Assembly: GCF_030816725.1 (NCBI RefSeq)
Contig: NZ_JAUSYG010000001.1
Coordinates: 2,604,001 to 2,668,000 of the forward strand
Length of the DNA stretch: 64,000 nucleotides
From: Pseudarthrobacter defluvii
GTDB taxonomy: Bacteria; Actinomycetota; Actinomycetes; Actinomycetales; Micrococcaceae
Reading direction: 5' to 3'
How positions within the stretch are numbered: the first letter of the stretch is position 1; each line of letters starts with the position of its first letter. The position numbers and the translations under genes are program-made. Shown here in pieces: positions 57,808 to 60,081 of the stretch. The notes below the pieces were generated by a model. The model ran no database searches, was not told where the DNA came from, and saw only the letters and a list, made by a program, of their open reading frames with translations.

Positions 57808-59514
57808 TCAGTCCCGCCGTTCTTCATCGTCCAGGGTGTTCGAGTCTTCGAGGACGTCGTCGCCTGCCTCTTCCGGTGCCGCAGCCTCAAGCTCGTCGTG
57901 TTCCACCGAGTCCTGGTCCGATTCCGCGTCGTCCGAAACGAAGTAGTCGGCGTCCTGGTCATCGAAGCTGCTGTCCTGGGCTTCCCTTGCGTCTGTAACG
58001 CGGGCGCTTTCGGCGGCAGGGGCAGCGGGAGCCGCTGCCGTGACTTCGGCTCCGGCTTCGGCTCCGGCTTCGGCTTCCGGGGCGGAGGCAGTGGAAGCAC
58101 GGTCCAGCATCCGGCGGCGCTCAGCCTCTTCCCGGGCCTCCTCTTCCTCGTCCCAGCCGAGGTCGATAATCTCGGGTTCCTGGTCCACACCCTGGCCCAG
58201 GGCATTTTCCGCCACCACGGCCTGACGGCTCCACTTCTGCGACTCTTCGTCGCGTCCCACCGCTGCCAGGGCGTCGGCGTAGGCACGGAAGAGACGCGGG
58301 CTGTAGGAGAACGCGCGGTTGATGTCCAGCTGCGGGATCTCAAGTTCCGCCACCGCTGCATCCAGTTGGCCGAGGTCGGTACGTGCTCCGGCGGCCACGA
58401 TGGCCAGCTCTACCTTCCCGGGCGCGTCGAGATCCTGGGCTTCCTCGGAACGGGCAACATCAAGGGCCCGGTCGGGGCGGCCCAGGCCACGTTCGCAGTC
58501 GGCCATGACGGGCAGATGCACATTGGAGCCGCTGATCCGCCGGAAGGTCCGGAACTCGCGCAGCGCCTCACCGTAGTGGCCGGCAGCGTAGGCGGTCAGG
58601 CCAACGGCTTCGCGAACAGCAGCGAGCCTACCGCCACGACGGCTGGCGGCAAGTGCGTGCTGGAAGGCCAGTTCGGGCTCGTCGTCGATGAGGCGGCCGG
58701 CCATGACCAGGTGGCGAGCCACCCACTCCGCGCTCTTGGACTCGAGGGTCTTGATCTGGTGCTGCGTGGCGCGGTCCAATTCCTTGCCCGTGACGTCCTC
58801 GTCGATTTCGGGCGAGCGTTCACGGTCCGGCCGGTTGGCGCTGCGAAGGTCGGCAGCGTTGGGCACGCGGGCGGGGCGTTCCTCCTGGCGGTCGCGGCCG
58901 AAACTGCGGGGACCGGATCCGCGGCCGGAGTCAGCACGGCTGTCGCCGCGGTTGTTGTCGCGGTCAAAGCTGCGGGGCGCCCGCTCTTGACGGTCACCGA
59001 ACGGTTTGCGGTTGTCACCGCCGAAGCCACGGCGATCGCCTTCGCCGTCGCGGCGGGGACGGTCGCCGTAGGGCTTGCGGTCGCGGTCACCGAACGGCTT
59101 GCGCTCACGGTCACCGGCACCGCCGAAACCACGGCGATCACCTTCCCCATCACGACGCGGACGATCACCAAACGGCTTACGGTCACGGTCACCGGCACCG
59201 CCGAAACCACGGCGATCACCTTCCCCATCACGACGCGGACGATCGCCATAGGGCTTGCGCTCACGGTCGCCGGCACCGCCGCCGAAACCACGGCGATCAC
59301 CTTCCCCATCACGACGCGGACGATCACCAAACGGCTTACGGTCCCGGTCGTCGAAAGACTTACGCTCCCCGCCACCGGTAGCTCCTCCGCGGGAGAAGTT
59401 GTTACCCTCACGGTCCGACCGGGACCTGAACCCACGCGGCTCACCGCCGGAGTTGTTGTTGCCGCGGAACGCGCCGCGGTCGTTGCCGCGGTTGCCACCG
59501 TTGTGCTCGGCCAT
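57808..59514 (-). CDS. Low-complexity RGG/RD-rich protein with TPR-like C-terminal half (Rv1691-like)
   Basis: 568 aa from the ATG at 59514 (CAGGAGGAA upstream). Residues 1-230 are Arg/Gly/Asp-rich repeats built on a 26-27-residue unit (RDRKPFGDRPRRDGEGD-type). The DNA repeats with 78-81-bp periods between about 59020 and 59360. Residues 265-440 are helical pairs of TPR kind (EWVARHLVMAGRLIDDEPELAFQHALAASRRG, GHYGEALREFRTFRRIS, GRPDRALDVARSEEA). The tail is acidic. The highly charged N-terminus suggests RNA binding and disorder; function unknown. Confidence 0.82.
   Translation of the reverse strand: MAEHNGGNRGNDRGAFRGNNNSGGEPRGFRSRSDREGNNFSRGGATGGGERKSFDDRDRKPFGDRPRRDGEGDRRGFGGGAGDRERKPYGDRPRRDGEGDRRGFGGAGDRDRKPFGDRPRRDGEGDRRGFGGAGDRERKPFGDRDRKPYGDRPRRDGEGDRRGFGGDNRKPFGDRQERAPRSFDRDNNRGDSRADSGRGSGPRSFGRDRQEERPARVPNAADLRSANRPDRERSPEIDEDVTGKELDRATQHQIKTLESKSAEWVARHLVMAGRLIDDEPELAFQHALAASRRGGRLAAVREAVGLTAYAAGHYGEALREFRTFRRISGSNVHLPVMADCERGLGRPDRALDVARSEEAQDLDAPGKVELAIVAAGARTDLGQLDAAVAELEIPQLDINRAFSYSPRLFRAYADALAAVGRDEESQKWSRQAVVAENALGQGVDQEPEIIDLGWDEEEEAREEAERRRMLDRASTASAPEAEAGAEAGAEVTAAAPAAPAAESARVTDAREAQDSSFDDQDADYFVSDDAESDQDSVEHDELEAAAPEEAGDDVLEDSNTLDDEERRD
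59020..59360. repeat. Tandem 78-81-bp coding repeats
   Basis: Near-identical units begin near 59123, 59201 and 59282, with a more divergent copy before them. They encode the RD/RGG repeats of the protein at 57808. In-frame unit length suggests gain and loss by recombination. Confidence 0.85.
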
Positions 59515-59699
59515 ATGGATTCCTCCTGTTGTGAGCCGACCACTGGCGCAACTGCAGCCGCTCGTTTCGTTTCCTACGCGACCCGAAATCAAGCGCTTCG
59601 AAGTCCGTACATCTTCATCAATTCTAGTGGAGCCGCAAAATGCCGCGGGACAGCGGAAGCCCTGGGAGCGGCATCGTGGCCAGCTTCACAGCTCAACGA

Positions 59700-59867
59700 A
59701 CGCCCGCTCACGTTTGGCAGGTTCCTCCCCGACGCCCGCTCATGTCTGGCAGGTTCATCTTGAACGCAGGCTCTCATGGCTTTGATAGCTATGAGAGGGT
59801 GTCGATGGTTTACCTGTCAGGGGTGAGCGGGGGTTGATCGTTTAGCTGTCAGGGGTGAGCGGGGGTC
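59700..59867. mobile_element. Symmetric inverted-repeat element (MITE or insertion-sequence remnant)
   Basis: About 168 bp. Four copies of a 22-23-bp unit with consensus ACCTGYCARRSRTGAGCGGG: two facing left (59701-59722, 59733-59754) and two facing right (59812-59833, 59844-59866). Each pair has a 32-bp period. The exact centre holds an 11-bp hairpin (59771-59797, CTCTCATGGCT/AGCTATGAGAG). No coding frame inside. The layout matches double transposase-binding sites at element ends brought together, as in a MITE. Together with the 5S terminator it is what the gene-free stretch 59515-59963 holds; nothing else was seen there. Confidence 0.65.
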
Positions 59868-59922
59868 CTGGGGCTGGTCCCGGTATTGGGTTCGTTTTGG
59901 GTGGTGTGTTGTTAAATGTGGG

Positions 59923-59948
59923 AGGCCCCAACCGTGTGGTTGGGGCCT
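59923..59948 (-). terminator. Terminator of the rRNA operon
   Basis: 11-bp stem (59923-59933 with 59938-59948), 4-nt loop, past the 5S 3' end on the minus strand, followed by CCCACATTTAAC. Confidence 0.85.
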
Positions 59949-59963
59949 CGACCTCAATGATTG

Positions 59964-60081
59964 TTCCGGCGGTGACCTACTCTCCCACACCCTCCCGGGT
60001 GCAGTACCATCGGCGCTGTGGGTCTTAGCTTCCGGGTTCGGAATGGGACCGGGCGTTTCCCCCACGCTATGACCGCCGTAA
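59964..60081 (-). rRNA. rrf: 5S ribosomal RNA
   Basis: About 118 nt. Minus-strand sequence begins TTACGGCGGTCATAGCG and ends GTCACCGCCGGAA; the ends pair as helix I. The loop sequence CCCATTCCGAACCCGGAAG is invariant for 5S. Ends are approximate within a few bases. Confidence 0.96.

Follow-up and report, generated by a model that had tools for sequence, protein, structure and literature searches.

In the available excerpts of two papers, REPs are described as repeats that are located within 20 bp of the 3' end of genes and pair up head to head as dimers (PMC3733652), and REPINs as inverted doublets of REPs that are linked to RAYTs (PMC3116915). With REPs, BIMEs and REPINs, as these excerpts describe them, the arrays reported here share that they are short extragenic repeats near gene 3' ends with a preference for convergent and unidirectional gaps, that they form foldable head-to-head doublets, and that they fall into many sequence families (PMC3733652; PMC3116915). 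Clusters, the form in which the present repeats occur, are described there as frequent in REPs of the GTAG type (PMC3733652; PMC3116915). The element that led to these arrays lies behind an rRNA operon, in a window of 64 kb (the whole stretch of DNA that was analysed; positions 2604001-2668000 of a 4.58-Mb genome in one contig).

Structure of the element behind the rRNA operon

The element at 59700..59867 has two arms, arranged head to head, in each of which three units follow one another on a 32-bp ladder (Table 1). The first-pass annotation had seen in it four unit copies in two inverted pairs with a common 32-bp period, placed around a central hairpin. The four copies (59700 and 59732 on the minus strand, and 59823 and 59855 on the plus strand), their period and the hairpin are all real, and the midpoint of the hairpin (59784) indeed coincides with that of the element (59783.5), but a third, degenerate pair (starting at 59764 on the minus strand and at 59791 on the plus strand, with 15 bases between its cores) had been missed, the plan being 3+3 instead of 2+2. 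Nor is the hairpin unrelated to the units, as it consists of the inner ends of this third pair (5 and 7 bases) and the gap between them; ten of the 11 pairs of its arms are Watson-Crick pairs and one is a G-T pair. As single-stranded RNA, the plus strand of the element folds with -105 kcal/mol (z -8.3) and the minus strand with -72.4 kcal/mol (z -6.3). A terminator scan, which requires a T run, gave no match at the inverted repeat behind the 5S rRNA, and rRNA and tRNA were the only matches above the Rfam gathering score in the window, the array matching no RNA family. The next gene (57808-59517, minus strand) encodes a product with a repetitive Arg/Gly/Asp/Asn-rich N-terminal region, for which no Pfam or NCBIfam family was found.

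Table 1. Features of the element and of the adjoining end of the rRNA operon (window positions).
Feature	Position	Strand	Remark
Core, left arm unit 3 (outermost)	59700..59711	-	ACGCCCGCTCAC on +; perfect match to the main spelling of the genome
Core, left arm unit 2	59732..59743	-	ACGCCCGCTCAT on +
Core, left arm unit 1 (innermost, degenerate)	59764..59775	-	ACGCAGGCTCTC on +; on the 32-bp ladder
Central hairpin	59771..59797	.	Arms 59771-59781 and 59787-59797; loop TTGAT
Core, right arm unit 1 (innermost, degenerate)	59791..59802	+	ATGAGAGGGTGT; on the 32-bp ladder
Core, right arm unit 2	59823..59834	+	GTGAGCGGGGGT; a frequent variant in the arm next to the rRNA
Core, right arm unit 3 (outermost)	59855..59866	+	GTGAGCGGGGGT
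12-bp perfect inverted repeat behind 5S	59922..59949	-	Possible end of the rRNA operon
5S rRNA of the operon that precedes the array	59964..60080	-	

Within the window, the pattern CTGNCANNNNTGAGCGGG had four perfect matches, all of them inside the element. With up to two mismatches, ten matches were found versus 3.9 expected, a number reached in none of 100 shuffles. The tandem pattern with three mismatches was marginal by count (six matches versus 2.2 expected, with 3 of 100 shuffles reaching six), its matches with no or one mismatch being confined to the element.

Anatomy of the unit

The unit is 32 bp long. Its core (R-ACGCYCGCTCAC-N-T, or the reverse complement of that) is conserved, whereas the remaining bases, about 20, drift. 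The anatomy of the unit was derived from 157 clusters with 748 units, collected under a limit of two mismatches to the core, which inflates core conservation. Outside the core, the T two bases behind is conserved in 94% and the purine before in 97% of the cases; the other spacer positions are mostly conserved at 31-61%, with two at 68-73%. Of 488 same-strand neighbours, 440 keep a distance of 32 bp, a share that is inflated because the loci were partly found by a 32-bp tandem pattern. In G052, a core search without a spacing condition gave same-strand neighbours at 32 bp 22 times and at 64 bp twice (hand count of the complete listing). Free from circularity are this spacing, the comparison of spelling (over 14 genomes) and of spacers, and the conservation of bases beyond the search word. 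Opposite-strand neighbours stand head to head in 93 cases versus tail to tail in nine, and the gap between the innermost cores amounts to 13 in 38 and to 4-6 in 37 of 112 cases, with smaller groups near 24 and 37.

No stem inside the unit was found when 205 spacer-distinct arrays were searched for covarying neighbouring pairs, only columns 14-17 standing out (z 4.5), and a unit-level hairpin was ruled out on this ground. In 51% of the arrays, the two innermost head-to-head cores have identical sequences, versus 33% between arrays (112 junctions, a set without duplicates, without junctions close to the ends of loci and without pairs that had fewer than three units); the second unit pair is at background (25% versus 29%; 80 arrays). 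As the innermost pair covaries and the second does not, only the innermost hairpin looks constrained, and one long functional hairpin was likewise rejected for lack of covariation in the second pair.

Distribution of the arrays

Used as a query against its own genome, the element gave ten more matches, distributed over eight places, and pattern searches retrieved at least 15 arrays there. The genome search for further unit copies, which the first-pass annotation had proposed as a check, thus yielded many; the other outcome that it had considered, single copies near rRNA operons, did not hold, as most copies follow or adjoin ordinary genes. A regulator private to rRNA operons was rejected for the same reason. 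The tandem pattern was found in at least 120 stretches of named genomes, those listed all being titled Arthrobacter, Pseudarthrobacter or Paenarthrobacter. Among 61 genomes of the genus, 17 matched the core of the own genome with one mismatch allowed, and 53 matched the relaxed core GTGANNGNGNGT placed twice at 32 bp without mismatch; the reversed control pattern of this relaxed tandem core matched none of the 61. The number of relaxed pairs ranged from 0 to 296 per genome, with the highest number in G045. Eight of the 61 genomes had no pair by the relaxed pattern, units still being visible in two of them (G029 and G038), which indicates that the arrays are not indispensable.

In a draw of genomes from the family, matches were found in seven of eight genomes of the same genus and in two of 141 others, both of genus g11, the control patterns being non-zero in two g11 genomes (two in G413 and four in G431). 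When genomes were drawn from the order, a core close to that of the own genome was found in three of 297, namely two of this genus (eight drawn) and one other. In G461, which belongs to g11, the 17 clusters listed all had the same spelling of the core, and the spacer (CACGACGTGGA-like) was in large part conserved as well; most sampled members of g11 besides G461 lacked arrays. One 102-base consensus in the spelling of the own genome had no match in PLSDB and INPHARED, and the exact tandem pattern of that genome had none in IMG/VR, so that a phage or plasmid origin was rejected for this spelling.

Genome-specific spelling of the core

Between genomes, the spelling differs at positions 5, 6, 8 and 10 of the 12-bp core. 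The commonest core word is GTGAGCGGGCGT in the own genome and G083, GTGAGAGAGCGT in G144, G266 and G242, GTGAGGGAGCGT in G032 and G214, GTGAGCGCGCGT in G055 and G052, GTGACCGGGCGT in G051, GTGATGGGGCGT in G003 and GTGAGCGAGCGT in G461 of the other genus. When the first unit of each listed cluster was compared (139 clusters from 14 genomes), with these four positions left free in the search, the agreement at them was 0.49 within genomes (928 pairs) versus 0.05 for units of different genomes (8663 pairs); in 1000 shuffles of the labels, 0.49 was never reached, the largest value being 0.13. Mixed spelling occurred in G000, G051, G052 and G083. Spelling shared among genomes may simply reflect close kinship.

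The spelling differs even at orthologous sites. Between genes that read as nitrilase-like and rlmB-like, the arrays L109, L157 and L168 are spelled differently from L300 (G144) and L308 (G214), and between genes that read as paaZ-like and VOC-like, L112, L152 and L146 are spelled differently from L293 (G214), these gene names being a reading of the sequences. Similarly, the rRNA sites of G000, G011 and G017 are spelled differently from those of G050, G059 and G020, orthology being judged from the flanks.

The spacers behave otherwise, as seen in a comparison of all 71 listed. In G052, spacers more than 5 kb apart agree in 10.1 of 20 bases (706 pairs, of which seven reach 16 and none reaches 18), and in G011 in 10.4 of 20 (456 pairs, of which 15 reach 16 and four reach 18). 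With distant spacers identical in about 10 of 20 bases, the common cores are mostly not recent copies. All spacer pairs of G011 with at least 17 of 20 bases in agreement join two rRNA-linked arrays, and the four pairs with at least 18 of 20 therefore indicate that arrays do get copied between operons. That cores are alike across unlinked loci while the spacers drift points to a reader acting in trans. The alternative that these are simple tandem repeats, expanding by slippage without any reader, would explain why adjacent units within an arm resemble each other more (0.48-0.49) than do units of different arrays (0.36). Yet slippage cannot explain the agreement of cores between unlinked arrays with differing spacers in one genome, which makes it a most unlikely account.

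Arrays behind rRNA operons

Of 20 stretches taken downstream of rRNA operons, three were too short and 17 were readable, and in ten of the latter at least two units stood on the ladder, one of these ten (L392) being no better than the control. In a relaxed scan of these regions, control matches occurred in five of the 17 (L382, L388, L390, L391 and L392), with eight in the control of L390 versus six real ones, although controls are partly inflated since a reversed array keeps its period; L392 has two units, and the calls at the other four rest on the core words as read. Arrays were found at three of the five operons of G011 and at two of the five of the own genome (the one in the window and 3311011-3311139). 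Two further operons of the own genome were read and were empty, and the stretch behind its fifth operon was too short, no pair being listed nearby in the relaxed-core search of the 61 genomes.

In rRNA-linked arrays, core position 3 is C in 33 of 36 units of the rRNA-side arm and G in 36 of 39 units of the far arm, a count read by eye that leaves out the chance matches in L388 and L391 and in which operons from the same genome do not count as independent. Two spellings show the contrast clearly, that of the own genome and GAGAG (for example, in L382-L384, L390, L391, L393 and L394); in the far arm of G050, it is seen in one of three units. Where present, this contrast suggests that sites are rewritten in place.

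Position of the arrays relative to genes

Relative to genes called in this analysis on the basis of codon usage, arrays tend to lie close behind stop codons. Of 166 gene 3' ends with an array no more than 300 nt away, 85 have it at a distance of 15 nt or less, some arrays overlapping the stop codon; start-codon sides are within 20 nt in seven of 95 cases, overlaps included. Divergent gaps hold nine of 125 arrays, versus 116 divergent gaps among 512 gaps of at least 60 bp (p 4.5e-5; 36 more arrays at locus edges were left out of the gap classes), and one of 47 arrays in the loci found by the relaxed pattern, mostly of other spellings. The flanking genes resemble ordinary metabolic and regulatory genes, and no mobile gene or transposase family was present among the 25 listed of 176 families for 89 flanking proteins (91 chosen), a listing from which a rare mobile gene may have escaped. 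A location behind genes is, nevertheless, equally expected of a tolerated parasite, as is known for REPs from the excerpted part of PMC3733652. As to the distribution along the genome, array clusters were scarce in the middle third of assemblies (six of 50 listed clusters in G000, G011 and G052; p 0.0008), and G144 had two of 15 listed clusters there (hand count). Among five assemblies looked at, only G144 begins in an apparent DnaA frame, and this scarcity is therefore not interpreted.

The sense strand of the arrays is C-rich and often begins directly after stop codons, which would suit an action at the RNA level, with the C-rich sense repeats serving as Rho-loading sites and the innermost hairpin as a stabiliser of transcript ends. 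Such an action would also fit the covariation of the innermost pair, including L218, in which the same changed base occurs in both innermost cores, and thus in both arms, as well as in the neighbouring unit. At tandem genes, the innermost stems have more G-U than A-C on the sense strand (23 versus 14), but over all 112 innermost pairs the two are nearly equal (223 versus 217). The outermost unit has the prevailing orientation toward the stop codon in 111 of 116 cases within 40 nt, and in 36 of 44 within 60 nt in the relaxed-pattern loci. This was rejected as proof of RNA-level action, as the head-to-head plan forces most of it; the informative subset, arrays with a single orientation, counts ten sense and four antisense (p 0.18). 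Furthermore, a 12-bp core, a 32-bp ladder and a species spelling are probably not what Rho needs, and at tandem genes the antisense and sense arms show similar conservation (mean mismatches 0.75 and 0.61, respectively; p 0.46), which favours a reading at the DNA level. An RNA-level role is hence considered quite improbable.

Gain, loss and mobility

Within a dihydrolipoamide-acyltransferase-like (E2-like) gene (L041 1837-1913; L319-L322), arrays of two to three units form an in-frame part of the linker. This linker is filled in the own genome, G011, G017, G056 and G009, and short in G001, G026, G035 and G007; in G003, it is intermediate and without cores. An empty site in relatives, of which the absence was to speak against the mobile element that the first-pass annotation had in mind, was thus found. 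As genomes differ in whether they have an array at this site, whole arrays do get gained or lost. No target duplication was visible in the alignment of filled and empty linkers, which are too variable to exclude one. The element in question, a MITE with paired transposase-binding ends, would account for the inverted symmetry and the multiple copies. However, unit number and plan vary between arrays, some having a single orientation, unlike the fixed length and terminal inverted repeats of a MITE. Taken with the flanking-protein families listed, among which there was no transposase, this leaves the MITE hardly credible.

A Y1 transposase was found in one of the 61 genomes of the genus (G032, with only two matches, C169:14061 and C38:8682) and not in the own genome, and RAYT-driven REPINs were rejected on this ground. 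Alternatively, the arrays may be selfish repeats of the REP/REPIN kind that are non-autonomous and owe their upkeep and former spread to a mobilising enzyme that is not RAYT, in which case the spelling would follow the enzyme and gene ends would be tolerated insertion sites. Their location behind genes, head-to-head doublets and hairpins are as in REPs, and both the wide range of pair counts per genome and the presence or absence of an array at one orthologous coding site would be expected of such repeats. The rarity of the Y1 transposase speaks against it, as does the dissimilarity of distant spacers, which gave no sign of recent dispersal outside rRNA operons. Of three pairs of similar arrays at distant places that were compared, those of G055 and G032 share flanks of 1.5-1.8 kb, being segmental duplications; the third pair, from G051, sits at the ends of contigs, where no judgement is possible. 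In addition, several orthologous positions are kept across spellings, and the flanking-protein families listed include no mobile one. Selfish repeats of this kind are, on balance, a serious but doubtful possibility.

A putative trans-acting factor

In view of the similar conservation of sense and antisense arms, the near-helical spacing (32 bp being about three helix turns) and the asymmetry of the cores, a DNA-binding protein is a likelier reader than one that acts on RNA. Tentatively, and with somewhat less than even confidence, we take the arrays to be read at gene ends by a putative trans-acting factor of changing specificity that most likely binds DNA; the strongest rival of this view is the REP-like selfish element with another enzyme. 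The array of protein-binding sites that the first-pass annotation had offered as its second reading survives in this form: putative sites fit the conserved core, the drifting spacers, the near-helical spacing and the genome-wide agreement of the cores, but they are not special to rRNA operons.

Such a factor would read every core on nearly the same helix face, and its specificity would shift between lineages, dragging the sites of each genome along. Less surely than the factor itself, bound arrays might, as the simplest role for their sites, form two-sided barriers or insulators at gene ends, which would stop transcription leaving the gene (here, read-through from the rRNA operon) as well as antisense transcription entering it; the innermost head-to-head pair may add a hairpin to the barrier. 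In its widest form, this model would comprise a genus-wide barrier or insulator at gene ends, with a single putative, fast-evolving DNA-binding factor, phased arrays at gene ends that number in the dozens to hundreds and include those of rRNA operons, and site sets that are rewritten in place into a species code. All of this together is rather unlikely. If true, it would represent a genome-wide co-evolution of a DNA reader and its sites in bacteria, outside restriction-modification and transposase systems.

Comparison with known repeat systems

Arrays of this family have apparently not been described before. The core of the own genome, read as GTGAGCGGGCGT, had no match in the openly licensed literature, and six other core words, including the reverse complement of the own one, led to no Arthrobacter paper by title in that literature. 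Among the titles on Arthrobacter repeats that were listed from it, no description of the arrays was found, which may exist elsewhere. Arthrobacter and Actinobacteria are not named in the main text of PMC3733652, the genus is not mentioned in the main text of PMC6006769 on related nucleases, and RepRanger gives, in the excerpt available, only repeat counts for one Arthrobacter genome (PMC12306157).

Like REPs, the arrays are extragenic and preferably located behind genes, with those inside the E2-like gene as an exception. Several features set them apart from REPs, however. First, the REP unit is an imperfect palindrome and the array unit has no stem. Second, head-to-tail dimers of REPs are absent, under-represented or negligible in the part of PMC3733652 that treats them, whereas direct 32-bp ladders are common here. 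Third, a RAYT/Y1 transposase accompanies the arrays in no more than one of 61 genomes. In the REPIN the head-to-head doublet is the moving unit; the innermost head-to-head pair of the arrays is also frequent, and covaries, but no movement was seen. The arrays also resemble CGTC-tagged REPs, which the same excerpts describe as extragenic, mostly head to head and without an associated transposase (PMC3733652). The array unit often reads CGTC or CGTT at one end of its core, as these do. They differ in having an 8-9-bp stem and a 4-5-nt loop in each unit and, according to these excerpts, in being rarely clustered (PMC3733652).

Outside the REPs, two further systems bear comparison. Mycobacterial interspersed repetitive units are, like the arrays, tandem intergenic units of actinobacteria that often touch stop codons, but their units are longer and have one orientation instead of standing head to head, and we know of no species spelling among them. 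In eukaryotes, the TTF-I/Reb1 terminator boxes are repeated asymmetric binding sites behind rRNA genes and may serve as a guide to how the arrays could act; no homology is claimed, and ordinary genes carry arrays here as well. Dispersed repeats at gene ends are thus already known. Here, by contrast, a drifting spacer accompanies a short core that is much the same throughout a genome and varies from one related species to another, even at orthologous sites. A drifting spacer next to a genome-wide core is the trace that would be expected from co-evolution with a trans-acting reader. Arthrobacter is a mostly harmless, cultivable soil genus, in which tests are practical. The arrays open to testing the long-standing question of whether REP-like repeats serve their host or themselves.
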